Positions 1,105-26,960 of a stretch of 28,011 nucleotides of DNA are shown one piece after another. The translations under genes and the position numbers were made by a program. Within the stretch, counting starts at the first letter, position 1. Each line of letters starts with the position of its first letter. The stretch is from a virus. The notes under the pieces were generated by a model. The model did not search any database. It saw nothing but the letters and a program-made list of their open reading frames with translations, and was not told the origin of the DNA. The DNA is taken from IMG/VR virus record IMGVR_UViG_3300009431_000109, positions 1-28,011 of that record; one strand, written 5' to 3'.

Positions 1105-3572
1105 GTCTTGATGATCCACTTGGCCCCGCCCCACGGGCCGCGGTTGTCCACCTCGTGCGATCCGTCCGGCTTGTCGATCGTGGGCGGGTTGCTTGTCCCG
1201 GTCCAGGTGGGCGAGCTGGTGTTCGTCGTCCAGTCCCAGCAGAAGGCGTCATACCCGCTGGTCACGCCGATGCAGGACGGACCGCCGTCGTAGGGTCCGT
1301 GGTAGTGGTCGAGATCGAGCGTCGCCACGCCGCCGGTGTTGCCGACGGTGCCAAATGTCGCATCCCCGCTTTTCCAGCCGCGGACGGTCCGTCCGCCGGT
1401 GTCGGGGACGTTGAATGTGGTGGATCCGTCGCCGACGCCCCATAGGGTTCCGATCGCGGTAAACAGGTCGGCGTAGGTTGTGCGGCTGACGGCGGCGCCG
1501 TCGCAGATCAACCATCCGGTGGGGACCGTGTTGCCGCCGTAGGGGCACATGGTGCCGGCGGCGAATCCCGCCGCGGCCGCCGGGGGGACCTGGCCGGCGA
1601 GGCGGGCCGGGTGGAAGGCGCCGGTCCGGCGGGCGGTCGGGACCGGGTCGCCCGGGCCGGCGGCGCCGCCGGATCCGGCGATCGACCGGTGGAGGCCGGC
1701 GAAGTCCAGCTCGGCGAAGTCCGTTTTCAGGGTCGTGGTGGCCTCGTCGAAGTCCCAGGTCACCTCGGAGATCACCGACTGGACCTCGAGGTCCTGGCCG
1801 TGGGCCGGCGTCATGAACGAGCCCAGGAGGGTCCCGATCATGTCCTGGTAGTCGAGGTTGGCCAGGGTCGCCTCGGCCCCGCGGCGGTCGCGGCCGTACC
1901 ACGCCTTGGCCATCGCGGCGATCGCCGTGAGCTGCGCCGCGTCGGTCCGGAGGGTCGCCGCGGCGGCCTCCTCGGTGCGGCTGCCGCCGGCGACGCCGAC
2001 CATCGTGTCGGCCAGGCGGTACCAGCACTGGGCCTCGGGGACGTCGATCGTCAGCGTCCCCCCCACGCCGTCGCCGATGTCGGCGGTCACCGCCAGGACC
2101 TCGTCGCTGTACCAGGCGACCGTGGCGTAGATCGTGTCGTAGTCGACGGCCGAGGCCTCGGGCCACTCGAACGACGCCCCGTCGGTGTAGTGGTTGCGGC
2201 CGAGCATGTAGTTGGGGTGGACGATCACGCGGATCCCGGGCTCGCCGTCGAGCGGGACGACGGTCATGTTCGGCCGGCGGTTGTCCGTCGTGGCGAGCTT
2301 GTCGATCGGTTCGTAGGTCGTGGATCCGCCGGGGTCGTTGTCGATCACGACCAGGGGCGAGCGGAAATCGTCCGGGGCGTCGGCGTCGTCGGCGGTCAAC
2401 CGGAGGGGGATCTGGGGGAGGAGTTGCTTTCCGTGGGCGAGGATCTTCGCCGGGCCGGCGGCGAGGGTCCCGTCGTCGTTGCACACCGGCCCGCCCGGGA
2501 GGGACGCGGGGGGGATCCGGTAGGCGGTAAAAACGGACTGGTATTTCTCGTCCTTGCGGTTCTGCTCGGTGGCGGCCTCGTAGGCGGTCTCCTGGGCCGC
2601 CGTCCAGGCCTCGTCGAGGGTCGCGTCGTCGAACGAGAACGTCCCGACCAGGAGGATCGGGGACCCGCGGACGACGACCTCGCTGTAGCGGACCGACTCG
2701 TCGGTGGTCAGCGTCACCCGGTCGTAGTTGGACCGCTCCAGGTCGATGATCGTCGCCGAGGCGGCCAGGGTGGTCGCCCCGACGGTCACGGCGTCGGCGA
2801 ACGCGCTGCAGATCTCGACCAGGACCGTGTTGTCGTTGTTGACCCCGACCCGCCAGGCGTGGCCCCGCTGGCGGGCGGCGACCGCGTCGAGCAGCGCCCC
2901 GACCGTCGGCATCGGCGCCACGGCCGAGGTAAAGGCCGCCAGGTTGGTCTCCAGGCCCGACAGGTCGGCCGCGAGGTCGCTGTCGGTGTACCAGGCCAGG
3001 GCGTACTCGGCGATGTCCTGGGCCGTCCAGGTCTCCCCATCGGCGCTGAAGATGTACGACGTCCGGCCGGACGGGGCGGCGTACTTCGTGGACGACCGGT
3101 TGCCCTGGACGGCCAGGCCCGCCGCGTGCGGGGTGTTGAACGTCAGGCGGCGGGTGATCGTCTGGGCGGCGGCCAGGAGCTCGACGACCGACCCGTCGAT
3201 CGGCGAGTGGTGGAGGATCCACGCCAGGTCGCGGGCCTGGAGGACCTGGACGCCGGTCGGCTCGGCCAGGTCGGCCATGCCCGGGGCGTCGGCGACGCCG
3301 GTGATCACGCCGTGCCAGATCGGCGTGATCGGCGGGCCGGGGTCGGCGATCCGGACGTAGTGGCCGACCAGGTCCAGAGGCGGCACGACCGCCCGGCCGG
3401 CCCCGTCGTTGTCGTCGATCTGGCCGTAGTGCCACCGGAGGGTCGCGGTGCCGATCGCCGGGGCGAGGATGGCGCGGACGGAGATCGGCTTGAGGTCCGG
3501 CCGGAGGATCCACTCGTCGGTCCAGTGTTCGCGGGTCTCGACGATCGGGCGCGTGACGGCGGCGGTGGTCAT
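1101..3572 (-). CDS. Tail hub/baseplate protein with C-terminal tail-collar domain (823 aa)
   Basis: The first about 620 residues look like a phage hub protein: an N-terminal beta domain (ISVRAILAPAIGTATLRWHYGQ), a middle with RDLAWILHHSPIDGSVV, and later EVQSVISEVTWDFDEATTTLKT. A Pro/Ala-rich linker (about 640-670) leads to a phage tail-collar domain (PF07484-like) at about 673-735: GTMCPYGG, PTGWLICDG, a helix, and STTFNVPDTGGRTVRGW. The end, NRGPWGGAKWIIKT, is typical of short tail fibres. Hub and receptor-binding parts appear fused into one chain. The stop overlaps the next gene as ATGA. Confidence 0.82.
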   Translation of the reverse strand: MTTAAVTRPIVETREHWTDEWILRPDLKPISVRAILAPAIGTATLRWHYGQIDDNDGAGRAVVPPLDLVGHYVRIADPGPPITPIWHGVITGVADAPGMADLAEPTGVQVLQARDLAWILHHSPIDGSVVELLAAAQTITRRLTFNTPHAAGLAVQGNRSSTKYAAPSGRTSYIFSADGETWTAQDIAEYALAWYTDSDLAADLSGLETNLAAFTSAVAPMPTVGALLDAVAARQRGHAWRVGVNNDNTVLVEICSAFADAVTVGATTLAASATIIDLERSNYDRVTLTTDESVRYSEVVVRGSPILLVGTFSFDDATLDEAWTAAQETAYEAATEQNRKDEKYQSVFTAYRIPPASLPGGPVCNDDGTLAAGPAKILAHGKQLLPQIPLRLTADDADAPDDFRSPLVVIDNDPGGSTTYEPIDKLATTDNRRPNMTVVPLDGEPGIRVIVHPNYMLGRNHYTDGASFEWPEASAVDYDTIYATVAWYSDEVLAVTADIGDGVGGTLTIDVPEAQCWYRLADTMVGVAGGSRTEEAAAATLRTDAAQLTAIAAMAKAWYGRDRRGAEATLANLDYQDMIGTLLGSFMTPAHGQDLEVQSVISEVTWDFDEATTTLKTDFAELDFAGLHRSIAGSGGAAGPGDPVPTARRTGAFHPARLAGQVPPAAAAGFAAGTMCPYGGNTVPTGWLICDGAAVSRTTYADLFTAIGTLWGVGDGSTTFNVPDTGGRTVRGWKSGDATFGTVGNTGGVATLDLDHYHGPYDGGPSCIGVTSGYDAFCWDWTTNTSSPTWTGTSNPPTIDKPDGSHEVDNRGPWGGAKWIIKT

Positions 3573-4312
3573 TACTGGACCTCCAGGAGGGTCGCGTCGG
3601 CGGGTTGCGTTTCTGCCGCGGCCTGGAATAGCGGCGCCGGCGTGCTGGCCAGGCGCCGGCGTGCTTTGGCGGCGAAATCTTCGTCGATCTCAATCCCGAT
3701 CCATCGGCGGCCGAGGCGCTTGGCGGCCTCGCATGTCGTCCCTACGCCGGCGAAGCAATCCAGGACGACGTCGCCCGGCCGGGTGTGCCACTGGATAAAG
3801 GCCGTCGCCAGGGCGACGGGCTTTTCGGTTGGATGCTGGTCGGCCCGGGGGATGATCTTCGGAATCCGTACCACGTTCGAGATCCGCCGGCCACCGTACC
3901 ACTTGCACGGCCCGCCGGGTTTCTCGCCGACTAAGACCGTCTCGTAGCTGCGCCGGTAGTGCCATCCCATCCCGAGGCCGCCCTTGTCCCATACGATCAT
4001 TTGCTTGAACCCGACCGCTTCGTCGAGCATGAGCGACCACCGCGCGAATTGTGGATCCGGGCCGTCATTGGCGATCGGCCTGGCGTCGGCTGCCGTGTTC
4101 TTTCCGCGGCCAAGCGCCTCCTCCCAGCGGTGGATCAGATCGCCGTTGTTGTTGTTGTGCCCGTAGGGCGGATCCGTGAATACCATATCGACCGCCCCGG
4201 CCGGTAGATCGGCCATGATGTCGAGGCAATCGCCGGTCAGGATGCACCCGTCGGAGCGGCCGGCGATCACGTCGTCAATCTGCACTCCGCAATCCGCAAT
4301 CCGCAATCCCAT
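3572..4312 (-). CDS. Second DNA methyltransferase, beta class (246 aa)
   Basis: An N4/N6-type DNA methyltransferase with catalytic TDPPY at residues 46-50 and AdoMet motif FAGVGTT at 187-193, in beta-class order. HPTEKP at 160-165 is a conserved family element. It shares RSDGCILTGD with the methyltransferase at 22773-23573, but the target-recognition region differs. It is inserted between two tail genes, overlapping each by one base (TGATG and TAATG), an unusual place for DNA modification. The first ten residues come from a GCGGATT repeat, so the original start may have been further in. It is probably an orphan methylase protecting phage DNA; specificity is unknown. Confidence 0.88.
   Translation of the reverse strand: MGLRIADCGVQIDDVIAGRSDGCILTGDCLDIMADLPAGAVDMVFTDPPYGHNNNNGDLIHRWEEALGRGKNTAADARPIANDGPDPQFARWSLMLDEAVGFKQMIVWDKGGLGMGWHYRRSYETVLVGEKPGGPCKWYGGRRISNVVRIPKIIPRADQHPTEKPVALATAFIQWHTRPGDVVLDCFAGVGTTCEAAKRLGRRWIGIEIDEDFAAKARRRLASTPAPLFQAAAETQPADATLLEVQ
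4282..4309. repeat. GCGGATT-type repeat at the methyltransferase N-terminus
   Basis: The minus strand reads GGATTGCGGATTGCGGATTG and then CGGAGTGC, beginning two bases after the start of the ATG. It encodes residues 2-10 of the methyltransferase (GLRIADCGV). The family is the same as at 10247-10344 and 13637-13670. Confidence 0.7.
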
Positions 4313-4680
4313 CACCCCGCCCCCTTGCGGATCCGCCAGGCGGTGTCGACGCGCCACTTGGCGGTCCCCTCGTGGATGCACGCGCGGGGGGTCGGGGCGA
4401 CGAACAGGATCGCGCAGTTGTCGTAGACCTCGCCGGTCGCGTCGGTGATCGAGACGGTGGCGCCCTGGAGGGCCTTGCACGCGGCGGCCTCGGCCCGGGC
4501 CGCGGCGGCGTCGGCGCAGAATGTCGTGGTCCCCATCGTCGACGGCGGGGCCTCGGTGCCGGTCAGGAGGTAGCGGTGGTGGTCCTCGCCCTTGGCCCGG
4601 GGGATCTCCTCGACCACCTCGCCGGCCAGGCCCGGCCGGCCGGTCATCACCGTGAACGTCCTGTCGCCGATCTGTCTCAT
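4312..4680 (-). CDS. Small tail-tip protein (122 aa)
   Basis: I do not recognise a family. The sequence is mixed alpha/beta: an opening strand pair (DRTFTVMTGRP), a charged loop, an Ala-rich helix (CADAAAARAEAAACKAL), and strands near the end (TAKWRVDTAWRIR). The position between tape measure and tail hub suits a distal-tail or hub-associated protein. The start is in an ATGA overlap with the tape measure gene, and the stop is shared with the methyltransferase start as TGATG (4310-4314). Confidence 0.65.
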   Translation of the reverse strand: MRQIGDRTFTVMTGRPGLAGEVVEEIPRAKGEDHHRYLLTGTEAPPSTMGTTTFCADAAAARAEAAACKALQGATVSITDATGEVYDNCAILFVAPTPRACIHEGTAKWRVDTAWRIRKGAG

Positions 4681-6077
4681 CGCTCACCGTGTGCGTTGTG
4701 GGCCGGGAGGCGATCGCTCGCCCGGCGGAAGTTCGTCGCGGCGGCGTTCATCTCGCGGGCCGTCGAGAGGTCCAGGGCCCGTTTCTGGGCCGACACGTCG
4801 GCCTCGCCGGCGGCCAGGTCGGCGTCGACGTCGCCGAAGCCGAGCGCGTTCTTGGCCTCGGCGAGGTTCTCGTAGGCCGACCGGAGGAACGGGTTGACGC
4901 CGGCGGTGCGGTACTGGTAGCCGCGGCGGGTCATCGTCGCCCCGCGGCGGCCGAGGTCCGAGTCGTACTCAGCGATCTCGGCCGCGGCGCGGTACTCCTC
5001 GTTGGCCATGTAGTTCCGCCAGGCCGGGTCGGCCATCGCCACCTCGCGATTGAGGCGGGCGTAGTCGCGGCCCTGGGCCAGGCGGATCCGCCGGGTGTGC
5101 TCGGCCGGGGTCAAGCCGCCGGCGCCGCCCATCATCGCCTCGACGGCCGCGGTCTGGGTCGTGAACAACTGCGCCCGCAGCGCCGGGTCGGCCTGGACCA
5201 TTCCGAGGCGCGCCGTCGCGTCGGCGGTGCCGTAGAACCGCCGCATCGCGATCTGGCCGGCGGTCTCCTTCCTGCCGAAGGCCGCCGGGGCGATCGTGCG
5301 CTGTTCGCCGAGTCGGCCGGCGAGGGCCTGGAGGGCCGAGGCGCCCTGTTCGGTCTGGACGCCGGCCAGGAGGTACCCGAGGGAGGTCTCGCCGCCGATG
5401 CCCAGGGCGCCCATCTGGCGGACGGCCTTGTACCCGCCGCGGGAGATCTTGCGGCCGTGGCGGCCCTGGGCGCCCATCACGTAGGCGGCGATGTCGTGGA
5501 CGTCGCCGGCGGTCGTCCCCGGCAGGAGGGCCCCGAGGGTCCCGAGCGCCGTCCCGACGTCCTCGGCCTCGCCGCCGTAGTACCCGGCCTTCTTGGCGGA
5601 GATCGCCTGGCCGTAAAGGCTCTTGATCCGGCCGAACTCGGCGGCGGGGGCCGCCCCGCGGATCGCCGAGTACATCTGGGCGCCCTCTTGGGGGGCGAGC
5701 GTCGTGCCCTCCTGGAAGATCATCCCGCGGACGCGCCCGGCGACGCCGAGGTCCCCGGCCCCGGCGATCGCCTTGGTGATCGAAACGGTGGCCTTGGCGG
5801 TCTGGGCCTCGAGGCGCTTGGCCTCGGCGATCTGGGCGGTGATCGCCTTGGTCGCCACGCCGATCGCCGCGGCGACGCCGCCCCACTTGAGGACCATCGA
5901 CTTGAGGTCCTTCGTCGCTCGCTTGCCGGCCCGGCCCATCGCCCCGTCCTGGGCCTTGGTCGCCCGCGTGGCCTTGCCGGTGGCCTTGGTCACCTTGTTC
6001 TGGGCGTCGACGACCTTGAGAAACGCGCCGACGGCCTTGGCCGATTCGGCGTCGAGCTTGAAGTTTACCGTTCCCAT
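4677..6077 (-). CDS. Tape measure protein (466 aa)
   Basis: The rod that sets tail length and is ejected ahead of the DNA. It is mostly helical, with repeated Lys/Ala/Thr-rich segments near the N-terminus (QNKVTKATGKATRATKAQ), a hydrophobic stretch at about 65-80 (WGGVAAAIGVATKAI), and many Ala/Gly/Arg helices to the end. It is the largest helical protein in the tail module and follows the chaperone position. At 466 residues it is short for the type; at about 0.15 nm per residue the tail would be roughly 70 nm. GGAAA precedes the start at 6077. The stop overlaps the next gene as ATGA. Confidence 0.8.
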   Translation of the reverse strand: MGTVNFKLDAESAKAVGAFLKVVDAQNKVTKATGKATRATKAQDGAMGRAGKRATKDLKSMVLKWGGVAAAIGVATKAITAQIAEAKRLEAQTAKATVSITKAIAGAGDLGVAGRVRGMIFQEGTTLAPQEGAQMYSAIRGAAPAAEFGRIKSLYGQAISAKKAGYYGGEAEDVGTALGTLGALLPGTTAGDVHDIAAYVMGAQGRHGRKISRGGYKAVRQMGALGIGGETSLGYLLAGVQTEQGASALQALAGRLGEQRTIAPAAFGRKETAGQIAMRRFYGTADATARLGMVQADPALRAQLFTTQTAAVEAMMGGAGGLTPAEHTRRIRLAQGRDYARLNREVAMADPAWRNYMANEEYRAAAEIAEYDSDLGRRGATMTRRGYQYRTAGVNPFLRSAYENLAEAKNALGFGDVDADLAAGEADVSAQKRALDLSTAREMNAAATNFRRASDRLPAHNAHGER

Positions 6078-14548: not shown

Positions 14549-16702
14549 TCAGGCGGTCGACTGGACCATCCCGTCGCGGTCGGCGGCGGCCACGCCGTAG
14601 TCGAGGTACACGCGGAAGCCCTCGGCCAGGGTGTCGCCGGCCGCGGCGACCGGCTCGACGGTGGGCGTCTGGACCCCGTCGAGGAACCCGACGCGGATGT
14701 TGGCGCACTCGGCCGGGTTGGCGAACAGGTACCACGTCGTGGCGCTGGTCAGGCGCGGGTCGGTGAACGGGGCGATGGATCCGTCGCCGTAGCCGTGCTT
14801 GCCGTGCTGGGTCGCCGCGGCGGCCCCCACGCCGATGACGACGATGTCCGGGCTCGAGCAGATCGCCCGGGCGGTCCCGAGCAGGGCGATCGGGGCCAGG
14901 AGCGTCTTGGGCATCAGGTGACGCGGCTGGCTCTTGGAGTCCAGCTGGCCCATCATCAGGGTCGCCGCCGAGTCGACCGTCGCGATCGCCAGGGCGCTGG
15001 ATTCCTGGAGGGTCTCGGTGGCGGTGGCGAAGATCGCCGTCCCGTCGGCCATCGCGGCGTTAGCCTCGAGCAGGGTGTACACGACGGTCGAGACGTCGTT
15101 CATGGCCCCGAGGCCCAGGAGGCGCGGGGCGTCGGTCAGGATGTCGATCCGGTCGTCGATGATGTGCTGACGGCTGATGTACAACACCTTGCCGCGCGTG
15201 ACGCCGGTGATCTCCTCGCCGCTGTCGTCGAGGCTGACCGCCGAGAGCTTGCCGTCGTCGCCGACCTCGGTCAGGCCGCCGGCGATGTCGAGCTTGACCA
15301 TCTTCTCGGCCTGGAACCCGCGGAGGGGTCCGACCGAGCAGAACTGGCGCCACGTCTGCTGGGCCGACAGGGCGCCCTGGATGGACGTCACGCCGGCAAC
15401 GTTGGTGACGATGTTGGCCAGGGAGGCCGTGCCGATCCCGGCGCGGTACAGGTCGGAGCGGTTGTCGGGGATCGCCCGGCCCTCGAGGCGCAGGGCGTGG
15501 CGGAACACGTCCTCGAGGCGCAGGCCGCGGAGGGACCGCTCGGCGGTGTGGAGGGTCTGCTCGTCGTAGCCGCGAGTCATCGCGAAGTCGCCGGCGTTGG
15601 CGCGGATCAGGATCCCGGCCTCGACGGTGCGCCTCGCCGCCTCGTCGGCGGCCGGGGCCACGTGGACCGCCGGGAGGCCGGTGACGGGCGGGCGGGCGGC
15701 GCGGAGGACCTCGGCGAACCGGGCGCGGGCGGCGTCGAGGGTGACCGCCGGGTCGCCGATCGCCGCGTCGCGGGTCGCCTCGTCGACGCCGGCGATCCGG
15801 GCCAGCTCGGTGATCTCTCGGGCGCGGGCGGCCGCCGCGTCGGCATCGCGGGCGTCGAGGATGTCGTTGACGTCGTCGCGGGTCAGGGCGACCGGCGGGT
15901 CGGCCGGCGGGGCGGCGTCGGCCGTGGCGCGGGCCTCGGCGGCCTCGAAGTCGGCCGTCAGGGCGGTTCGCTGGTCGTCGGTGAGGTCGTCGGGGTCGAA
16001 ACCTCGGGCTCGGATGTAGTCGTTCAGGTTCATGGTGGCGGTGTCCTTTCGTTGGGGGGTCGCGGGGGCGGTGCGGTGGGTGGCGGTGTGGTGCGGCGGG
16101 CGATCGTCGTCCGCGCGGTTGGTCGCGTTGGGGTCGGCGCCGATCGGGCAGACGGAGTTTTCGTGGATCGTCCAGGACGTCGCGATTCGCAGCGGGCGGC
16201 CGTTGTCGGCGGCGGTGAACTTGCGCCCCTTGACCGTGGCGGTCTGGCCCGGGTCGATGTAGACGGCGCCCTCGACGCGGTAGCCGATCGAGTTGTCCGT
16301 CAGGTGGCCGCCCTGGATCAGGGACCATGCGGTCTCGCCTCGCTCGGTCTCGGCGAACGTGTTGACGCCGATCAGCTTGTCGCCCTCGACGCGGATCTCG
16401 CGGGTGGATCCGATCTGCTGGTCGATCGACCAGCGGCCGTGGGCGTCCAGGAGGGGGATCTGGCGCGAGTCGGGGATCTCGACGCCGGCCATCAGGAGGA
16501 TCTCGTCGACCCGCTCGTAGCGCGTCCAGTCGTAGACCGTTACCGGGGCCTCGGTGGCGATGACGGCCTCGACGGTGCGGGCCTCGACGTCGAGGCTCTC
16601 GGCGCGGGTGACGTAGGCGCGGACGGTGAGGCGATCGGCGTCGGTGGCCGCCGGCGGGGCGTTTCTCGTCTGGATCGGGCTCGGTCTATGCGGCGGCTGC
16701 AT
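14549..16702 (-). CDS. Prohead protease-major capsid protein fusion with internal start (717 aa)
   Basis: Residues about 25-200 are an HK97-type prohead protease (U35): His88 in LLDAHGRWS, Ser138 in HLTDNSIGYRV, and the conserved ENSVCPIGADPNA. Residues 224-390 are helical and charged, like a scaffold/delta domain. The rest is the capsid fold, ending with WYLFANPAECANIRVGFLDG and GFRVYLDYGVAA. Met224 (start at 16033) has the same CGAAAGGAC ribosome site used elsewhere, so a separate 494-residue scaffold-capsid protein is probably made in excess, with the full fusion as a minor product. Protease-capsid fusions are known in phages. The ATG at 16702 is served by GGAG inside the portal repeat. 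Confidence 0.88.
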   Translation of the reverse strand: MQPPHRPSPIQTRNAPPAATDADRLTVRAYVTRAESLDVEARTVEAVIATEAPVTVYDWTRYERVDEILLMAGVEIPDSRQIPLLDAHGRWSIDQQIGSTREIRVEGDKLIGVNTFAETERGETAWSLIQGGHLTDNSIGYRVEGAVYIDPGQTATVKGRKFTAADNGRPLRIATSWTIHENSVCPIGADPNATNRADDDRPPHHTATHRTAPATPQRKDTATMNLNDYIRARGFDPDDLTDDQRTALTADFEAAEARATADAAPPADPPVALTRDDVNDILDARDADAAAARAREITELARIAGVDEATRDAAIGDPAVTLDAARARFAEVLRAARPPVTGLPAVHVAPAADEAARRTVEAGILIRANAGDFAMTRGYDEQTLHTAERSLRGLRLEDVFRHALRLEGRAIPDNRSDLYRAGIGTASLANIVTNVAGVTSIQGALSAQQTWRQFCSVGPLRGFQAEKMVKLDIAGGLTEVGDDGKLSAVSLDDSGEEITGVTRGKVLYISRQHIIDDRIDILTDAPRLLGLGAMNDVSTVVYTLLEANAAMADGTAIFATATETLQESSALAIATVDSAATLMMGQLDSKSQPRHLMPKTLLAPIALLGTARAICSSPDIVVIGVGAAAATQHGKHGYGDGSIAPFTDPRLTSATTWYLFANPAECANIRVGFLDGVQTPTVEPVAAAGDTLAEGFRVYLDYGVAAADRDGMVQSTA
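16033..16052 (-). promoter_or_regulatory. Internal ribosome-binding site of the capsid part
   Basis: On the minus strand CGAAAGGAC lies about ten bases before an in-frame ATG at 16033 (Met224 of the fusion). The same motif precedes the genes starting at 8018, 14396, 18477 and 27614. The codons before it encode a His/Thr/Pro-rich linker, consistent with a domain border. Confidence 0.65.
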
Positions 16703-18248
16703 CGGTGGACTCCGTGGACTCGGTGGACTCGGTGGACTCGGCCGCGGTCTCGTCGGCGGCCTCGGCGGCGTTTTCCGCGGCGATCGCCGGGGCGGCGTCC
16801 TCGATCGTCAGGCCCTTGGTCGCCAGGTACTCGCGTTCCTCGGCGATCTGGTCGACCGCGCGGCGCCAGTCGAGGCCCTGGCGGGCGTACTCGCGCTTCA
16901 GCGTGGTCGTCAGGCTGTTGAGGCGGATCCGCTGGGCGTTGGCCTCCTTGGCCGGGTCGACGTGCTGGCGGCCGGGCCAGTACCACTCGGCCAGGATCCC
17001 GGCGCCGGGGCGCAGGATCGGACGGACGCGGGTGGTCAGGGCGTACTCGGCATACCAGGCGTCGAAAACGGCGTTGCAGTCGACGCGGCGGTCGGCCTGG
17101 CGGGTGGTGACGAAACGGTGGTAGCCCTGGTCGTCGAGGCGGCCCGAGGCGTAGTTGTGGTTGGACGAATCGGCCGCGGCGCGGTTGTACGGCATGTGAA
17201 ACGGCCGGGCGGCCTCGGCGATCTGTTCGTGCTTGAAGTCCTTGTACGTGGCGGTCGGCTGCTTGGCGTCGAACCCGGTGGCGCCGTAGCCGTAGGGGAT
17301 CGTCATGGCCGAGTCGTCGGGGATCTCGACCTCGTCGAAGTCGGCCTCGGCGTCCTCGACGTCGATCTCGGCGTTGTTGGCGTGGAGGAGGACGGAGATC
17401 GACGCGGCGCGACGTGCCGCCCGGACGGTGGCCAGGGTGTAGCCGCGCAGTTGCATCAGCGGGATCAGGCTGGCCGCCAGGCGCGGGATCCCGCGGATCT
17501 GGCCGGGGCGGTCGGGGTCGAAGATGTGGATCACCTTGTCGGCGGGGACCAGGTCGTAGGCGGCGGGGTTCGCCGCGCCGGTCGTGTCGCCGGGGTGGTT
17601 CTTGAGGATGTAGTATCCCGACGGGCGGCCGTCGTCGTCGAACCGGACCCCGTCGCGGACGGTCCGGTCGCCGTAGAGGGCCCAGGGCGAACAGACGCGA
17701 TCCGATTCGATCAGGCGGAGCCGGAGCGAGACGGCGCCGCGCGCCGCGTCGGGGTCGTTGACCAGGACGATGAACGCCTCGCCGGAGTGGCCGATCTGTT
17801 GCTCGGCCTGGCGGAGGATCTGCCCGAAGGTGCGCGACCCGTCGGCGTCGCACCGGGCGGACCAGTCGGCGAAGTCGTCCTCGATGCGCTGGGCCGTGGT
17901 CTCGGCGGGCCCCGAGATCTGCAACCGCGGGCCGGGGCCGACGACGTCGTTGGCCAGGGTGTCGACGATCCCCCGAGCGTAGCCGTTGTTGGCGTACTCG
18001 AACCGGCACCGCCGGCGGATGGTCGCCAGGTCGGCCCGGACGATCGCGTTGATGTCCAGGATCGAGGCGTCGGCGAAATGCGTGTCGGTGTAGCGATTGG
18101 ACGCCGCCGCGTCGTAATACGACCGGCCCTGGCCGCCGCGCTGGTTTGCGGGCTTGCGGACGATCTTGTTGACGATCGGGCGGGGGGCCTGGCCGCGGCC
18201 GACCAGGGCGTCGGCGACGCGTCGGAGGAGTCCGCGGCGGCGGGCCAT
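16686..18248 (-). CDS. Portal protein, lambda family (520 aa)
   Basis: The dodecameric vertex through which DNA enters and leaves the head. Length and sequence fit the lambda B-type portal family (PF05136): a basic N-terminus, NNGYARGIVDTLANDVVGPG near 90-110, the SGEAFIVL strand, DPDRPGQIRGIPRLAA in the middle and NYASGRLDDQGYHRF later. The C-terminus is low-complexity, Ala/Glu-rich with four EST repeats, encoded by a 9-bp tandem repeat. The gene overlaps the next one by 17 bases. Its place between the gpW and protease-capsid genes is standard. Confidence 0.92.
   Translation of the reverse strand: MARRRGLLRRVADALVGRGQAPRPIVNKIVRKPANQRGGQGRSYYDAAASNRYTDTHFADASILDINAIVRADLATIRRRCRFEYANNGYARGIVDTLANDVVGPGPRLQISGPAETTAQRIEDDFADWSARCDADGSRTFGQILRQAEQQIGHSGEAFIVLVNDPDAARGAVSLRLRLIESDRVCSPWALYGDRTVRDGVRFDDDGRPSGYYILKNHPGDTTGAANPAAYDLVPADKVIHIFDPDRPGQIRGIPRLAASLIPLMQLRGYTLATVRAARRAASISVLLHANNAEIDVEDAEADFDEVEIPDDSAMTIPYGYGATGFDAKQPTATYKDFKHEQIAEAARPFHMPYNRAAADSSNHNYASGRLDDQGYHRFVTTRQADRRVDCNAVFDAWYAEYALTTRVRPILRPGAGILAEWYWPGRQHVDPAKEANAQRIRLNSLTTTLKREYARQGLDWRRAVDQIAEEREYLATKGLTIEDAAPAIAAENAAEAADETAAESTESTESTESTDAAAA
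16704..16739. repeat. Four 9-bp tandem repeats (GGTGGACTC)
   Basis: Four units, three identical and one with C in place of the first G, encode Glu-Ser-Thr four times at the portal C-terminus. On the minus strand the variant base makes GGAG, eight bases before the ATG of the protease-capsid gene. Confidence 0.8.
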
Positions 18249-18454
18249 TAGCGGGCCCTCGACGACTTGAAGGTGTTGATCGCGAAGGCCCGGCCGGCGG
18301 AGCTGGTGTTCTGGCCGGCGTAGAGGCGGGCCAGGGCGTCGAGCATGTCGGCCCGGGACCCGTAGGCCACCGTCCGGCCGTTCTCGTCGGTGACCGACGT
18401 GGCGCCCACCTCCAGGGCGGCCTCGATCGCGGCGATGATCGTCGCGGTGCTCAT
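18248..18454 (-). CDS. gpW-like head-tail joining protein (68 aa)
   Basis: A small protein of the lambda gpW type, which closes the portal after packaging and prepares the head for tail attachment. Length (68 residues) and pattern fit: an N-terminal helix (IIAAIEAALEVGA), a short beta hairpin (SVTDENGRTVAYGS), and a second helix (RADMLDALARLYAGQ). A position immediately before the portal gene is typical. The stop overlaps the portal start as TAATG (18246-18250). Translation is probably coupled to the leader peptide upstream. Confidence 0.75.
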   Translation of the reverse strand: MSTATIIAAIEAALEVGATSVTDENGRTVAYGSRADMLDALARLYAGQNTSSAGRAFAINTFKSSRAR

Positions 18455-18477
18455 CGAATACGTCCGATCCAGGTCAT
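18451..18477 (-). CDS. Eight-residue leader peptide MTWIGRIR coupled to the gpW gene
   Basis: A short frame begins at the ATG at 18477, eight bases after the phage's usual ribosome site CGAAAGGACCG. It ends in TGA overlapping the gpW ATG as ATGA (18451-18454). The gpW start itself has only a weak ribosome site, so ribosomes probably load at the leader and reinitiate. The alternative is a long gpW frame starting at 18562, which has no ribosome site and would include the terminator. Confidence 0.5.
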   Translation of the reverse strand: MTWIGRIR

Positions 18478-18497
18478 GCGGTCCTTTCGGGCTGTCC

Positions 18498-18547
18498 AAA
18501 AAACGGCGGCCGGGCCTGGTGGAGTGGCGGCCCCGCCAGGCCCGGCC
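18498..18547 (-). terminator. Strong intrinsic terminator before the head operon
   Basis: Perfect 12-bp arms, GGCCGGGCCTGG (18508-18519) and CCAGGCCCGGCC (18536-18547). On the minus strand the hairpin is followed, after four bases, by six T (18503-18498). This should stop transcripts from the cassette. The head genes start only 21 bases beyond the T-run, so they need read-through, antitermination or a promoter not seen here. Confidence 0.75.
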
Positions 18548-18630
18548 TGTTCGATCCAGCATGATCTACCTACGTTTTTCGCGCGGGGAGACGGCCGGGG
18601 CAAGTGGAAAACGGCCCCCGCGCGGCAAGT

Positions 18631-20558: not shown

Positions 20559-20993
20559 TCACGGTCTCGGGGTCGGGAAGTTTGTCATCCAGGACCACGA
20601 CGTCATCCGGTCGACGATCTTGGTCAGCGTCTCGATATGGGCCTGGAGGGCGGCGACCAGGCGGTCGTCGGGCGCGGCGATCGCCTCGAGGACCTCGCCC
20701 ACCTGGGGCGTCGGCGGGCCTATCACCGGACCGAGGGCGCCGAGGTGGTGGAGGTCGGCGGCGAGGGTCTCGGCCTGGGCCTGCGTGAGGACCACCGCGG
20801 CGGGAGTTTCCTCGCCATCGGACACGTTGACGAAGCCGGGGCGCTCGAGTCCCGCGGAACCCACGATAAGGGCCCGCGTCATGTCGTCGACGTCGGCTTC
20901 GTCGCGGGTGGATAGGATGTGGAGGCAGTAGCGCGACGGGTCGAACCGCTTGGAGGCCCGGACGTCGAGGCCGCTGGGGGCGTGGTTGCTCAT
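20559..20993 (-). CDS. Hypothetical protein of the packaging module (144 aa)
   Basis: I do not recognise this protein. The start at 20993 has a good ribosome site (AAAGGA) and overlaps the preceding stop as ATGA. A longer open frame continues upstream but is only the shadow of the kinase fusion. The first 60 residues look globular (CLHILSTRDEADVDD). A helical segment at about 68-90 (LTQAQAETLAADLHHLGAL) and another near 108-130 could form a coiled coil or dimer. It ends about 65 bases before the zinc-ribbon gene; that gap carries a short repeat. Confidence 0.65.
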   Translation of the reverse strand: MSNHAPSGLDVRASKRFDPSRYCLHILSTRDEADVDDMTRALIVGSAGLERPGFVNVSDGEETPAAVVLTQAQAETLAADLHHLGALGPVIGPPTPQVGEVLEAIAAPDDRLVAALQAHIETLTKIVDRMTSWSWMTNFPTPRP

Positions 20994-22156
20994 GATCGTT
21001 TTTCCTTTCGCTTGGCCGTCTTGGTCGCGGCCGTTTTCTTGGGTGCCGTTTTTCGTTTGGCGGTTTGTCGTTTGGCCGTTTTGGCCGCGGGGGTCTTGGC
21101 CGTCTTGCGGGTGCGTTTGGGGCGTTTGACCTTGCGGCGGAGGCGGGCGATCTCGTCGCCGGCCAGGCGGACCAGGTCGGCGTCGGTCAGGTGCGGGTCG
21201 TCGGTCAACGCCAGGGGCTCGATCACGTCCTCGATCGACCGGACGATCGCCGCGAGGTGCTCGGACTCGATCGCCCGCCGCTCGGCCGGCGTTGTTTGGG
21301 CCGGGCCGTCGCCGTCGGCGGCCGGATCGGCCCCGGCGGGGACCTCGCCCACCGGGCCGAGGCCGAGGAGGCGGTTTTTCTCGCGCTGGGCGGCCAGGGC
21401 GGTCTTGACGTCCTGGATCCGGAGGGACCGCGAGTACAGGTCGTCCAGGCGGGTGATCGACTCGCCGAGGGCCGCCGGGGCGCTGTACTCGGCGGCCCGG
21501 GCGATCCGCCGGTGGGCCTCGGCGATCGCCGCGGCGGCCGCCGGGCCGTCGAGGCCGAGCTTTTCGCCGGCGGTGGCCAGGATCCGCGACGGGCGGAGGC
21601 CCGAGACGATCAGGAGGACGATCTGGTCGACGGTCTGCTCGGCCGCGGCGGCCGCGTCGCCGGCGGCGGGCTCGGCGGGCCCGGCGGCGGGGGCCGCCGC
21701 GGCGCCGTCGGTCCGGACGATCTCGAGGGCGCCGGCCTCGGCGGCCGTCGGGGCCACCAGGTCGTCGAAGTACCGCGCGACGGCCCGCTCGGCGGCCCGG
21801 GGCTGGAGCGGGTGGCCCTTGCGGGCCCGGATCCGGGCGAGGCAGACGTCCGAGGGGGTCGGGACGTAGAGGATCCGCGTGGCGTACCCGGCGGCCCGGG
21901 CGGCGGCGAGGATCTTCTTGCGCTGGGCCTGGCGGGGGTTGGTCCGGTCGATCACGATCACCGGCGGTTTCTGGTCGCCGGCCAGGGCGGCCTTGACCGC
22001 GGCCAGGAACCCGCGGAAGTCCGACGGCGTCTCGGGGTCGTCGGGGCAAAGGATCGGGGCGCCGCCGTACCGGTCGGCGGCGAGGGTGCTCTTGCCGGAC
22101 CCGGGCGGGCCGACCAGGAGGACCATCTCGCGTTTTGTGGCCTGGGGGTCCGTCAT
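20990..22156 (-). CDS. P-loop polynucleotide-kinase-like domain fused to a small-terminase-like domain (388 aa)
   Basis: Three parts are visible. Residues 1-150 form a P-loop kinase: Walker A GPPGSGKST at 16-24, then VIVIDRTN (66-73) and a basic segment with RIRARKGHP, the pattern of AAA_33/T4-Pnk-like kinases that phosphorylate 5' hydroxyl ends. Residues about 174-266 resemble small terminase subunits: a helix-turn-helix-like segment (SGLRPSRILATAGEKLGL) and then long helices ending REKNRLLGL. Residues 341-388 are a Lys/Ala/Thr-rich histone H1-like tail, probably binding DNA. An Ala/Pro-rich linker (about 151-172) separates the first two. No other TerS candidate lies near TerL, which supports the assignment. 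The kinase activity and packaging role are inferences. Start and stop are both ATGA overlaps. Confidence 0.72.
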   Translation of the reverse strand: MTDPQATKREMVLLVGPPGSGKSTLAADRYGGAPILCPDDPETPSDFRGFLAAVKAALAGDQKPPVIVIDRTNPRQAQRKKILAAARAAGYATRILYVPTPSDVCLARIRARKGHPLQPRAAERAVARYFDDLVAPTAAEAGALEIVRTDGAAAAPAAGPAEPAAGDAAAAAEQTVDQIVLLIVSGLRPSRILATAGEKLGLDGPAAAAAIAEAHRRIARAAEYSAPAALGESITRLDDLYSRSLRIQDVKTALAAQREKNRLLGLGPVGEVPAGADPAADGDGPAQTTPAERRAIESEHLAAIVRSIEDVIEPLALTDDPHLTDADLVRLAGDEIARLRRKVKRPKRTRKTAKTPAAKTAKRQTAKRKTAPKKTAATKTAKRKEKRS

Positions 22157-22776
22157 TTCGTCAGCGCCTCCTCCATCCAGTCGCGGTGGAATCGGTAAAG
22201 GCCCGCGTCGCGGGTGATCACGTAGTTCTCAAGGCGGGGGTTGCCGGTCAGGTTGGCCGATCCCTCGACGCAGATCCCGCCGTCGGGCGTGGCCAGGAGG
22301 AGGACCTTTGCGTGGTTCAGGAAGGCGCGGTAGCGGCCGCCGCGGGCCCGGATCCCGTCGAGGAGGAGGGCGTAACTGGCCGTCTCGCGGCGCTTGAAGT
22401 AAAGGCCGGTCAGGATGTCGACGGTCCCGATCCGGCCGGTGTCCCACAACTCCAGGAGGTCCACGACGTTCGGCCGCGATGTCGTCCACGTCGAGCACGA
22501 CAAGCGGTCGGTGCGGCCGATCCAGTCCAGCAACACCGGGACCCACGTCCAGAAATCGAACGTCCCCGGGCCGATCAGGTGGACCGATTCGCCGATCGCC
22601 GGCGGGCCGTCCATCACGTCGCCGAGGGCCTGTTTCTGGCGGAAGCGGATAAACCGCCGGCGGGCCTCGGCGCGGCGGAACCGGGCGGCGGCGGGCATGT
22701 GCTCGGTCTCGAGCGGGTCGACCGCGTCCTGGCCGCCCAGGATGTCGTCGATCAGGTAGTCGTCGCCGGCGGTCAT
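22153..22776 (-). CDS. Phospholipase D-like protein with one HKD-type motif (207 aa)
   Basis: The C-terminal half contains one PLD-superfamily motif: His155 and Lys157 in NHAKVLL, followed by EGSANLTGNPRLENY (171-185), the typical GS-N-x-N companion. Family members hydrolyse phosphodiester bonds, often as dimers when only one motif is present, and include small nucleases. Residues about 85-130 look like an alpha/beta half-domain. The N-terminal 60 residues are charged and helical. It starts at 22776 in an ATGA overlap with the methyltransferase and ends in an ATGA overlap with the kinase fusion, so it belongs to the packaging/DNA module. A nuclease acting on packaged or host DNA is a reasonable guess; the substrate is unknown. 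Confidence 0.78.
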   Translation of the reverse strand: MTAGDDYLIDDILGGQDAVDPLETEHMPAAARFRRAEARRRFIRFRQKQALGDVMDGPPAIGESVHLIGPGTFDFWTWVPVLLDWIGRTDRLSCSTWTTSRPNVVDLLELWDTGRIGTVDILTGLYFKRRETASYALLLDGIRARGGRYRAFLNHAKVLLLATPDGGICVEGSANLTGNPRLENYVITRDAGLYRFHRDWMEEALTK

Positions 22777-23573
22777 TCGTCGGCCTCCTGGGGCGGGAAC
22801 AAGGGGCGGGGGACGGTGTCGAGCCGGCGGGCGGCGGTCTCGGCGTTTGCGGGGACGGACTCGACGGCGATGTAGCGGTACCCGGCGGCCTTGGCCGCGA
22901 CGGCCGTCGTCCCGGATCCGGCGAACGGGTCGAGGATGATCCCGCCGGGCGGGGTGATCCGGACCAGGTCCCGCATCAGCGCCGTCGGTTTGCCGGTCAT
23001 GTGGTGCTTGTCGGCCTGGGTGACGCGGTGCGAGAACATGCCGGGCAGGCATGGCGCATCGGCGGGCGGCGCGGGCATGGGGCCGGCCGATCCCCAGACG
23101 ACGTACTCGCACTGGTTGCGGAATCGGGCTTTCGCGGGCCGGGTCGAGAGGGTCTTGTCCCAGGGGACGATCCCACGCCATATCCACCCGCCGGCCTGGA
23201 GCGCGTCGGTGGTGATGGGGAGCTGTCGCCAGTCGGTGAACATGCACAACGGGGCCCCCGGGACGGCGGCCCGGAGGCATTGGGCAAGCCAGAGCGCCGA
23301 CCAGTACCCATACGCGCGCTGGTCGCGGTTGTCGCCCGTGAACTGGGCGTACTGGCGGAGCGTGGACGTCATGACGTACTTCTCGTTTGTGCGTTGCATC
23401 CGATCGGAACGGAAGGCCCCGCCGGACGAATACGGGGGGTCCGTAATGACGGCCCCGATCGACGCGGCGGGGATCATCGGCAGGATCGCCAGGGCGTCGC
23501 CGGTCAGGATGCAGCCGTCGGAGCGAGCATCGAGTACTTCGTCGATTGCGTGTCGGGTCTCGGCGTCGGTCAT
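22773..23573 (-). CDS. DNA (adenine-N6 or cytosine-N4) methyltransferase, beta class (266 aa)
   Basis: An S-adenosylmethionine-dependent DNA methyltransferase of the N4/N6 family (PF01555-like). The catalytic motif IV is TDPPY at residues 44-48 and the AdoMet-binding motif I is FAGSGTT at 217-223. This order, with the target-recognition region between, defines the beta class. The start at 23573 overlaps the TerL stop as ATGA. No restriction endonuclease is adjacent, so it is probably an orphan enzyme that marks phage DNA against host restriction or influences packaging; that role is inferred. Near its N-terminus it carries RSDGCILTGD, also found in the second methyltransferase of this window (3572-4312), with nearly identical DNA. 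The recognition sequence cannot be predicted. Confidence 0.9.
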   Translation of the reverse strand: MTDAETRHAIDEVLDARSDGCILTGDALAILPMIPAASIGAVITDPPYSSGGAFRSDRMQRTNEKYVMTSTLRQYAQFTGDNRDQRAYGYWSALWLAQCLRAAVPGAPLCMFTDWRQLPITTDALQAGGWIWRGIVPWDKTLSTRPAKARFRNQCEYVVWGSAGPMPAPPADAPCLPGMFSHRVTQADKHHMTGKPTALMRDLVRITPPGGIILDPFAGSGTTAVAAKAAGYRYIAVESVPANAETAARRLDTVPRPLFPPQEADE

Positions 23574-25693
23574 CGGCGGGATCTCCTGGCCTTCTGGCGC
23601 TCGCTCATCTTGGGTTTTTTGGTCGGGGGGCGGTTGGCGGCGGCGCCGGCGGCGGACGGGCCGGCCGGGCGGGCCGCGGCGGCGGGGATCTCGGGGATCC
23701 CGCGGATCGCGGCGGCGGCGCGGGCCATCGCCGTCGTATCGAGGTAGTGGTTGGCGCGGCGGCGGCGGTCCCAGAAGGTGAGCTCGCGGCCGCCCCGGAA
23801 GATGGTCGTCAGGGCCTCGGCGGTCACCTGGTCGGCGTACTCGCGGTGGGCGATCGGGTCCGATCCGAATACCGAGAGGGACCCGGGGCGCGGGGTCCCG
23901 TCGTCGCGCGGCAGGAGAAACGCGGCGTGGACGGTCTCCTTCCAGTGGTCGGCGTTGAGGTTCATCAGCCAGATCCGGGCCTCGGCCTGGCGGGTGGAGA
24001 ACCAGTTGCGGCCGAGTCGACGGCCCCGGGCCTTTTTGGCCGGGGGGCGATACCTCGCCTGGCCGGTGGCGGTGCCGAAGCCCTTGGACGGGACGTAGAG
24101 GCCGCGCGGGCCGGTGCGGCAGAAGGCGTAGACCGCCTGGGGGCGGTACCCGGCGTCGACCAGGCACAGGTCGAGGTGTCGGACCTCGCCGGTGGTCGAC
24201 TCGGGCCATCCGGCGGCGAACTGGTCGCGGACCTCGGCCAGGGCCTCGACGATCGCCTCATCGAGGGCCCGGGCGTTGGCCGGGTCGGTCAGGGCGCCCT
24301 CGAGGGGGGAGTGGACGCGGGTCGAGCCGTAGTCGACGACGTAGCCGGCCCCGGCGGCGACGGCCAGGACCGTCCAAGCCAGGTGCCGGCCGTGGACGTC
24401 GACGGCGGCGGTGATCACGTCGGTGGCGGGCGGGACGGTCCCGCGGGCCAGGCCGTCGGTGGCGGTCATCACCGCCCCGAGGTCGATCCCGGCGGTCTCG
24501 GGCGCCTCGTCGGCCGGCGGGACGTTCTGGTACTCGGTCTCGAAGGCCGCCCGGCCGTCGTCGGCGATCACGTCGTAGCAGAACTGCAGCGCGGAGATCT
24601 GGCGGCGGGTCCCGTCGGGGAGGCGGTCGCCGAAGTAGCGCGCGGGGTTCGAGACGATCGCCCCGGCGTGCATCGCCTCGCGGTGGGCCAGGAGGTGGCG
24701 GTGGGCCGTCCGGCCGGTCTTGTCGCCGGCGATCGCGTCGCGCTGGCGGAGGTCGACGTAGGTGTCCCAGAGGTCGGCCCGGTCCGGCTCGGCGGTCAGG
24801 AGCTTGTGACGGTGGCCGCCCCAGGCGGGCTTGCGGGCCGGGTCGGTGTAGATGTCGGCCAGGTCGTTGCGGGCGATGATCGTCGCCAGGAGGAGGATCG
24901 CGATCGGGGTGTCCTGGCCGCCGAGCTGGGCCACGTCGGCGTCGATGTACCGCTCGCGCTTGGCGATCTCGGTGGCGCTGGCGGCGGTCTCGCGGGTCTG
25001 GGGGTCGTCGATGATCACCATGTCGGGGCGCTGGCCGTTGTAGTTCAGGCCGCGGATCGCCGCGTCGAGGCCGCGGCAGGTGATCAGGGCCCCGGCCGCC
25101 GGCCAGGGCCGGCCGGTCGCCGGGTCGATCACCATCGGGAAGCGGAGGATGTCGCCGGTCCAGCGGGTGCGGGTCCGGACGCCGGCGACGGTCTGCTGGT
25201 TGGCCCGCTGGGCGGCGCCGCCGAGGGCCCGGACCGGGTGGCAGGCCTCCGGGAAGTCGGCGGCGAGGCGGTCGTTGGTCTCGACCTGGTCGCGGATGTT
25301 GCCGGTGTTGCGGATCGCGTCGCCGGCGTTGGCGCCGATCAGGACCACAAAGCGGCGGTGACCGTACAGGAGGGCCCAGAGGGCCAGGCCGCGGGCGATC
25401 TCGGATTTGCCCTCGCCACGCGGGGCCGCGACGGCCTGGTAGCCGGCGAGGTCGATGCAGGACCGGAAGGCGTCGATCATCGCGACGTGGTTCTCGCTGA
25501 ACTCGCGGTAGAACGTGTCGGGGAAGTAGACCTCGAGGAAAAGGCGGGGGTCGTCGCCGGCCAGGCGGCGGCGGCGGGGGTTGGCGATCGGCGGGATCAC
25601 CAGGTCGCGGGCGAGGGCGCGGCGGGCGGCCACGCGACGGCGGTCGCGTTCGCGTTCGGTCAGGCGGGCGGGGATTGTGGCGGGACCTGTCAT
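23570..25693 (-). CDS. terL: Terminase large subunit, GpA-like (707 aa)
   Basis: The packaging motor: an ATPase that drives DNA into the prohead and a nuclease that cuts the concatemer. With the start at 25693, a Walker A-like loop is at residues 91-98 (PRGEGKSE) and Walker B at 225-230 (MVIIDD). An RNase H-like nuclease domain begins around 427, with Asp432 (AVDVHGRH) and Asp513 (CLVDAGYRPQ) as likely metal ligands. The later segment with VYAFCR, a Lys-Gly pair and NHYLDTTAMARAA matches the usual C-terminal pattern of GpA-type terminases. The start was chosen because it forms ATGA with the preceding frame and because the in-frame extension to 25882 is poorly biased and runs through palindromic DNA. 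The stop overlaps the methyltransferase start as ATGA. Confidence 0.92.
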   Translation of the reverse strand: MTGPATIPARLTERERDRRRVAARRALARDLVIPPIANPRRRRLAGDDPRLFLEVYFPDTFYREFSENHVAMIDAFRSCIDLAGYQAVAAPRGEGKSEIARGLALWALLYGHRRFVVLIGANAGDAIRNTGNIRDQVETNDRLAADFPEACHPVRALGGAAQRANQQTVAGVRTRTRWTGDILRFPMVIDPATGRPWPAAGALITCRGLDAAIRGLNYNGQRPDMVIIDDPQTRETAASATEIAKRERYIDADVAQLGGQDTPIAILLLATIIARNDLADIYTDPARKPAWGGHRHKLLTAEPDRADLWDTYVDLRQRDAIAGDKTGRTAHRHLLAHREAMHAGAIVSNPARYFGDRLPDGTRRQISALQFCYDVIADDGRAAFETEYQNVPPADEAPETAGIDLGAVMTATDGLARGTVPPATDVITAAVDVHGRHLAWTVLAVAAGAGYVVDYGSTRVHSPLEGALTDPANARALDEAIVEALAEVRDQFAAGWPESTTGEVRHLDLCLVDAGYRPQAVYAFCRTGPRGLYVPSKGFGTATGQARYRPPAKKARGRRLGRNWFSTRQAEARIWLMNLNADHWKETVHAAFLLPRDDGTPRPGSLSVFGSDPIAHREYADQVTAEALTTIFRGGRELTFWDRRRRANHYLDTTAMARAAAAIRGIPEIPAAAARPAGPSAAGAAANRPPTKKPKMSERQKARRSRR

Positions 25694-26025
25694 GTGGTGG
25701 CCTGGGGCGGACGGACGGACTGTGTCAAAAATGCGCGGGCTGCTGGACCGCAAGGTTTCGGGACGGGCTTGGGAGTACCTTTTGCCTTGGTTCTCCGGGC
25801 GGTTTTTGTCGAGGTTTGCCGCCCTGAAATGCCATCGGGCGCCCCCCGCGCTCCGGCCGGTGCGCGCGCACAACTTACACACCCGCGCCGATCGTCCGAT
25901 CTCGCGACCGTTGCGGGCCTTACGATCCGCCCGTCGGCGCCGCGGCGCGCGCGCGGTCCGTGCGCCAGCGCGCCATAATACAAATTAAGCGCCCCTCGCC
26001 CGTTTTGCCGGCCGGGCGCAATCAT
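25690..26025 (-). CDS. Doubtful 111-aa frame between integrase and terminase
   Basis: This open frame fits exactly between the integrase and TerL, joined to both by ATGA overlaps (26022-26025 and 25690-25693), which fits the gene style of the window. Against it, third codon positions are not GC-biased as in every neighbour (CTT, AAT, TTG, TAT, GTA, AGT, AAA and TTT all occur). The product is an Arg/Pro/Gly-rich string without a recognisable fold, and the stretch holds palindromes and an AT-rich patch more typical of control DNA. It may be an accidental frame over a regulatory or attachment region, or a recently acquired small gene. Confidence 0.3.
   Translation of the reverse strand: MIAPGRQNGRGALNLYYGALAHGPRARRGADGRIVRPATVARSDDRRGCVSCARAPAGARGAPDGISGRQTSTKTARRTKAKGTPKPVPKPCGPAARAFLTQSVRPPQATT
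25694..26021. promoter_or_regulatory. Atypical stretch between integrase and terminase; possible control or attP region
   Basis: About 330 bases without a convincing gene and with lower, patchy GC. Seen in it: two perfect 12-bp palindromes, GTGCGCGCGCAC (25860-25871) and GCGCCGCGGCGC (25937-25948). An AT-rich island at 25972-25989 reads, on the minus strand, TTAATTTGTATTATGG and includes a TATTAT that could be a -10 box for the packaging operon, though no good -35 lies 16-18 bases upstream. A position next to the integrase would suit attP. No direct evidence separates promoter, operator and attachment-site readings. Confidence 0.35.
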
Positions 26026-26960
26026 AGCATCCCCTCCATGATCGCCGCCCCGAGCTCGACGCGGACGGCGATCGTCTGGTCGTAGTACACCGCGAGCATC
26101 CTGAGATCCTTGTGACGCGAGAACTTCTGGACGTCCGGCATCAGCGCCCCGCGGCCGATCATGGCCGAGATCGCCGCGTGGCGCAACCCGTGCGGCGTGG
26201 TGCGAAAGCCGGCGGCCCGGCTGACGCGGTCGACCATCCGCGCGATCCCGCCGGGGCCGAGTCGCCGGTCGTGCCGGTGGCCGTTGTCGAGCGGGACAAA
26301 GAGCGGATCGGCGGGGTCCTCGAGGCCGGCCGGCATGTCAAGCCAGGCGGCCAGGGCCGAGCGCGTCGAGCCGTTGATCGGGACGATCTGCGTGTCGCGG
26401 CGCCCCTTGCCCTGGATCCGGATCACCGCCGGGCGGCCCTTGCGGAGGTCCACGTCGCCGCGGTTCATCGCCCCGGCCTCGCCCCGCCGGAGGCCCTCGC
26501 CGTACAGGAGGGCCAGGATCGCCCGGTCGCGTCGGCCGGCCAGGCCGCCGGCGGCCTTGGCGATCGCGAACATCCGGGCGACGATCACCGGGTCCGGCCC
26601 GCGGGTGTCGCGGAGGACCGTCGCCGGCACCGGCGCCACCGTCAGGCGCCAGTCGACCAGGTCGAGGTCCTGGGCCGTCCGCGTCAGGGAGTTGATCGAG
26701 GCGATCCGCCGGTTGACCGTGCCGGCCGCCGCCCGGTCGGCCAGGGCCCGCTGGTAGGACCTCACGATCGCCAGGGCCTCGGCCCGCCCGCCGGCCAGGA
26801 GGGCTTGGGCCGCGTCCTGGACCGTCGCGACGCCGAGGTGGCGGGCCAGGTCGGCCAGGTCGCCGGCGTAGGCCTCGCGGGTGGCCCGGGCCTTGTCGGC
26901 AAGCCAGGCGTCGATCGCCCGCCCGGCGGCGTCATGATCTCGATCGGGTCGCCGGGCCAT
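26022..26960 (-). CDS. int: Tyrosine recombinase / phage integrase (312 aa)
   Basis: A site-specific recombinase of the lambda-integrase/XerC-D family, which cuts and rejoins DNA through a 3'-phosphotyrosine intermediate. Residues about 10-110 form the helical core-binding (SAM-like) domain. The catalytic domain shows all expected residues: Arg158 in GEGLRRGEAG, Lys185 in QGKGRRD, His257 and Arg260 in PHGLRHA, His283 in SRHKD and the nucleophile Tyr292 in VYYDQ. The length suits the minimal phage/Xer type, without an arm-binding N-terminal extension. It lies three bases after the zinc-ribbon gene and its stop forms ATGA with a possible downstream frame. Its place directly ahead of the packaging genes, on the same strand, is less common than an isolated integrase beside attP. 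An attachment site may lie in 25694-26021. Confidence 0.93.
   Translation of the reverse strand: MARRPDRDHDAAGRAIDAWLADKARATREAYAGDLADLARHLGVATVQDAAQALLAGGRAEALAIVRSYQRALADRAAAGTVNRRIASINSLTRTAQDLDLVDWRLTVAPVPATVLRDTRGPDPVIVARMFAIAKAAGGLAGRRDRAILALLYGEGLRRGEAGAMNRGDVDLRKGRPAVIRIQGKGRRDTQIVPINGSTRSALAAWLDMPAGLEDPADPLFVPLDNGHRHDRRLGPGGIARMVDRVSRAAGFRTTPHGLRHAAISAMIGRGALMPDVQKFSRHKDLRMLAVYYDQTIAVRVELGAAIMEGML

Follow-up and report, generated by a model that had tools for sequence, protein, structure and literature searches.

A gene of a temperate planctomycete phage that joins a polynucleotide-kinase-type domain to a small-terminase candidate

The DNA analysed here, referred to below as the window, is filed in IMG/VR as a viral record with a length of 28,011 bases; the 28 kb contig is possibly incomplete. 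An integrase, a lambda-type portal, a protease-capsid fusion and a head-tail adaptor (Table 1) mark the element as all or part of a temperate tailed phage, and the virus infects bacteria of the Planctomycetes. The gene under study belongs to a tight operon in the order large terminase (TerL), methyltransferase, PLD-like protein and fusion gene, in which TerL is the third gene upstream, as had been predicted. The TerL itself looks chimeric, with an ATPase half of Mu type and a nuclease half resembling that of lambda gpA. A second DNA methyltransferase-like ORF lies near the left end of the window (3572-4687).

Table 1. Features of the window, in order of position
Feature	Positions	Strand	Evidence
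Protease-capsid fusion	14549..16702	-	phrog_4523 6.7e-90
Portal, lambda family	16686..18248	-	Pfam 4.5e-65
Head-tail adaptor	18248..18562	-	phrog_2545 2.4e-7
Fusion gene (388 aa)	20990..22156	-	Translation; codon-position G+C
Residues 341-388, Lys/Arg-rich tail	20993..21136	-	Sequence, alignment
Residues 267-340, variable spacer and conserved C-terminal segment (LEPLxL...LVRLA)	21137..21358	-	Alignments
Residues 174-266, HTH-like and helical hairpin core, TerS-candidate family	21359..21637	-	Alignments, AF2, synteny
Residues 151-173, Ala/Pro-rich linker	21638..21706	-	Sequence; low pLDDT in full-length model
Residues 1-150, PNK-type AAA_33 kinase domain	21707..22156	-	Pfam, PNK folds, alignment with chromosomal homologues
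PLD-like single-HKD protein, adjoining the fusion gene on its 5′ side	22153..22776	-	
N6/N4 DNA methyltransferase	22773..23573	-	Pfam 6e-24
Large terminase, Mu-like ATPase half (phrog_38) and lambda gpA-type nuclease (PF20454)	23570..25693	-	
Tyrosine integrase	26022..26960	-	Pfam 6e-20

The fusion gene is a single intact reading frame, which runs from an ATG at 22156 to 20990 with zero internal stops. It is a real gene, because its codon-position G+C (0.74/0.56/0.94, in a genome of 71% G+C) is like that of its neighbours and its first 4 bases are also the last 4 of the preceding PLD gene. The same codon-position pattern holds for the kinase part and the helical part taken separately.

Judged from sequence and predicted structure, the first 150 residues make up a P-loop domain of the polynucleotide-kinase type, as the profile, the individual residues and the fold agree. 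Pfam AAA_33 matches residues 11-127 with an E-value of 2.3e-14 and 54.3 bits, above the curated cut-off of 27. The Walker A sequence GPPGSGKST and the DRTN motif, noticed earlier within the first 75 residues, are indeed found at 16-24 and 70-73, and the alignment with chromosomal homologues adds Asp40 and the lid arginines Arg108 and Arg112; Asp40 falls on the catalytic Asp position in an alignment that has a one-residue gap. Among solved proteins matched over the full domain, those nearest in sequence are mammalian PNKP and small kinases from fungi, and the best folds for the AF2 full-length model (pLDDT mostly 70-85 in the kinase part) are 9drz (Z 10.2), mammalian PNKP (9.7) and T4 Pnk (9.6). 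The PNK matches extend from Z 10.2 to 8.0, with most adenylate, APS and fructose-6-phosphate kinases at Z 7-8. The closest folds all being PNKs, the original proposal of a polynucleotide-kinase-like first part holds. The fold, the Walker A motif, the catalytic Asp, the DxTN motif and the lid arginines are shared with the PNK domains of T4 Pnk, mammalian PNKP, C. thermocellum Pnkp and the fungal proteins 9drz and 9d8a. In contrast to these enzymes, the window kinase has no phosphatase or ligase partner domain and is joined to a protein of the phage packaging module. On this sequence and model evidence, the domain probably phosphorylates 5′-OH ends of nucleic acids.

The helical part behind the linker belongs to a family, which was defined on residues 174-340. 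Its first members were found in IMG/VR; later ones came from MAGs named Planctomycetales, Planctomycetes, Sedimentisphaerales and Phycisphaerales, and from other genomes of this phylum. In total, 26 non-redundant planctomycete phage and prophage loci were read, and in every one of them the helical protein stands alone and the kinase is absent. The helical gene adjoins TerL on the 5′ side, or overlaps it there, in 16 loci (L005, L006, L007, L008, L010, L013, L016, L019, L020, L021, L024, L025, L027, L030, L065 and L066; the adjoining TerL of L065 is a remnant). It lies upstream of TerL with other genes between in L004, L046, L047, L050 and L064, and downstream (3′) of TerL in L011, L017, L018 and L049, as in the window; the contig of L048 is too short to place it. 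The four downstream loci share with the window protein a Lys-rich tail as well, and therefore the tail and the position 3′ of TerL are features of this clade. The tail of the window protein, rich in Lys, Ala and Thr, consists to 48% of Lys and Arg. It had been called histone-like; its Lys-rich nature is confirmed, the term itself is mere description, and the tail is clade-wide and so lies outside what is novel in the fusion. In L065 (2-827), the helical protein is followed only by the TerL remnant and a large gene that is not phage-like. One candidate locus with a Peregrinibacteria match (L022) was dropped, as it sits in an unrelated frame of 1636 residues, and long open frames in L017 and L018 were rejected as further fusions, being shadows of the overlapping PLD frame.

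The fusion of kinase and helical part was found in one virus and on one contig only. Two contigs of the same strain (L002 and L003, 99.9% identical) begin at residues about 157 and 272. The original prediction called for a search for the same architecture in other phages; it recurs nowhere searched, and no description of a PNK-TerS fusion was found in the literature searched. An erroneous assembly, in which host kinase DNA was joined to the phage, might be suspected where one contig alone spans the junction and the kinase stretch occurs on no viral contig. Such a chimera is unlikely, indeed very improbable, because the open frame and an equal codon-position G+C run across the junction and both edges of the kinase fit the phage operon, its start overlapping the PLD stop as with other operon genes. 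Of the kinase relatives found, the closest (33-41% identity) lie as stand-alone genes on Planctomycetes chromosomes among ordinary host genes, and no relative was found in the viral contigs searched. Therefore, the kinase is a recent capture by the small-terminase (TerS) candidate, and it is an accessory gain, since every relative read lacks it.

The TerS is usually encoded directly 5′ of TerL. Residues 174-266 are predicted as confident helices (AF2 pLDDT about 95 over most of the segment), in a predicted arrangement of HTH-like part and helical hairpin; in the model of the whole helical part, five helices are confident, and two more towards the C-terminus are less certain. The original prediction that this segment resembles TerS proteins is supported by the gene position of the relatives and, weakly, by the fold. 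The small terminases of G20c and P74-26 (6ejq, 4xvn, 6v1i) are among the few PDB entries spanning the whole core, at Z 5.8, 5.0 and 4.1, which is noise level; the G20c match (Z 5.8 over 91 residues, rmsd 8.7) is of the noise level usual for helical models. The window protein and these terminases are alike in the order of HTH and helical hairpin, as far as the model predicts it, in size and in the slot 5′ of TerL among the relatives, whereas sequence homology is undetectable, the structural match stays at noise level and the gene of the window clade lies downstream of TerL. A Foldseek search of the PDB with the helical part gave nothing significant, with ribosomal-protein and TerS entries at noise level. 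Among predicted viral structures, 10 of the 50 best matches carry the name terminase small subunit; ranked first (E 4.7e-5) is a protein of Hot spring virus BHS1 with a putative DNA-binding function. A study of a hot-spring virome reported a phage fragment related to Gemmata in which domains of both the large and the small terminase occur (PMC5707555).

The profile searches did not follow the original prediction. The helical family has no significant TerS profile match in Pfam, PHROGs or NCBIfam; the best TerS-named profile, phrog_5334 (terminase small subunit), reached E 0.12 with one family member. A PDB profile search with the family gave chance matches only, and known phages yielded zero sequence matches, whether the query was the whole protein, the helical part or a relative. 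Matches to phrog_800 and phrog_4581, both named terminase small subunit (E 0.01-0.04), were discounted, as they cover the Walker A motif only. As TerS families are very divergent, the lack of a profile match leaves a TerS possible. Two other packaging-region HTH proteins were compared. The DUF1804 DNA-binding protein of Mu-like phages (RcapMu31, DMS3-24) is also small, its gene lies directly 5′ of TerL in RcapMu, RcWaterboi and RR1-B and close upstream in DMS3 and VW-6B, and the TerLs beside it have an ATPase half related to that of the window TerL; homology to the helical family was rejected at an hhalign probability of 0.4%. Homology to the lambda Nu1 TerS was likewise rejected (0.7%).

The absence of another TerS candidate, which had been part of the original argument, was upheld for the window, where Pfam and PHROGs scans of most genes and six-frame searches with phrog_57 and Terminase_2 found none, on a contig that may be incomplete. 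One relative does carry another. In L004, the helical protein (689-1114) stands side by side with a Nu1-type TerS (phrog_57, 4e-30) and a full gpA-type TerL, which speaks against the TerS reading, and it lacks the C-terminal segment (residues 267-340) that the others keep. In one reading, L004 may have swapped its terminase, and the old TerS would have lost its TerL-contacting part. Among ten viral records carrying the helical protein that were searched, a phrog_57 Nu1-type TerS was clear only in that of L004, and Terminase_2 was found in none.

The strongest argument comes from a distant branch of the family. The family profile also reached L029/L052 and L028/L051, and a profile comparison of the family with L029 gave a probability of 93.5% (E 2.4e-7). 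The distant-branch proteins lack the C-terminal segment. In L052, the gene for this protein runs into the start of a Terminase_6N TerL gene, behind which come an HK97-type portal and capsid, and L075 has the same pair of protein and TerL. This Terminase_6N enzyme differs from the window TerL, with its Mu-like ATPase and gpA nuclease. The same slot thus precedes two unrelated TerLs, and this is the best argument for a TerS. The window TerL family itself occurs in 55 of 392 Planctomycetota genomes, and only 3 of the 30 window-type TerL loci taken from such genomes (L076-L105) encode the helical protein in the part of the upstream flank that was examined. For this reason, this TerL family may have several partners, of which the helical protein would be one at most. 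The elements at these 30 loci could be gene transfer agents or domesticated elements. Many of them carry a conserved ORF of 65-75 amino acids (..NADGTxNLVHYAAWLVKEM..) just 5′ of TerL.

The rarity of the helical protein beside these TerLs, the missing TerS profile match, and L004, which retains the PLD and helical proteins yet uses a Nu1 TerS and a full gpA TerL, fit a different role as well. Though this is less likely than a TerS, the helical protein might bind DNA as an accessory to a PLD-nuclease/methyltransferase cassette in the packaging region, and the fusion would then connect a kinase that processes ends with a module for DNA repair or anti-restriction. The PLD-like protein has one HxK/GSAN motif, keeps 58-61% identity between otherwise divergent phages and stands beside packaging genes wherever found; its gene lies directly 5′ of the helical gene in 11 of the 26 loci and in the window. 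In L013 (5992-7152), the PLD-like protein is fused to a phosphoribosyltransferase-like domain. Against an accessory role stand the 14 loci without a PLD gene beside the helical protein (L049 has an HNH gene), most of which abut TerL, and the distant branch, which keeps the order TerS, TerL, portal and capsid without PLD. Residues 174-340 are thus presented as a TerS candidate, a role that the evidence modestly favours.

If the helical part is a TerS, it would most likely bind packaging-site DNA through the HTH, oligomerise through the helical hairpin and recruit TerL; the basic tail would raise its affinity for DNA. Tethered by a flexible linker, the kinase would most likely phosphorylate 5′-OH ends of nucleic acids near the phage DNA. 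The full reading, in which a temperate planctomycete phage has a TerS candidate with a recently captured N-terminal polynucleotide-kinase-type domain, has an even chance of being correct.

The job of the kinase is a separate matter. T4 Pnk repairs tRNA 5′-OH ends made by host defence nucleases. The window kinase resembles stand-alone repair kinases, is tethered by a long flexible linker and occurs in 0 of the 26 relatives, so that packaging does not need it. It is thus a real possibility, though short of an even chance, that the helical part is a TerS and that the kinase, as a passenger, does unrelated work, for example the repair of 5′-OH ends left by host defence nucleases; the fusion would then be an operon accident giving co-expression and localisation to DNA. 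Against such a passenger, the Pfam and PHROGs scans, which covered most window genes, recognised neither an RNA ligase nor an anticodon nuclease. The kinase may alternatively mend the ends of damaged phage DNA or RNA while infection proceeds, or act as partner of the PLD-like protein. The original proposal of 5′-end repair at the packaging cut has general repair or counter-defence as an equal rival, and action of the kinase at the cut is improbable. Improbable to the same degree is a packaging initiator that itself phosphorylates or repairs DNA termini there, or in which the kinase fold would act as an ATP-sensing switch.

Few isolates of planctomycete phages exist. If the TerS reading is true, the helical proteins would form a new small-terminase sequence family for these phages, and one member would show a packaging initiator gaining an end-processing enzyme. 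The need of phage termini for 5′ repair before or after packaging would then become testable. Even with a passenger kinase, the helical family would be of use as a marker, and would offer a TerS candidate where a phage has none annotated.
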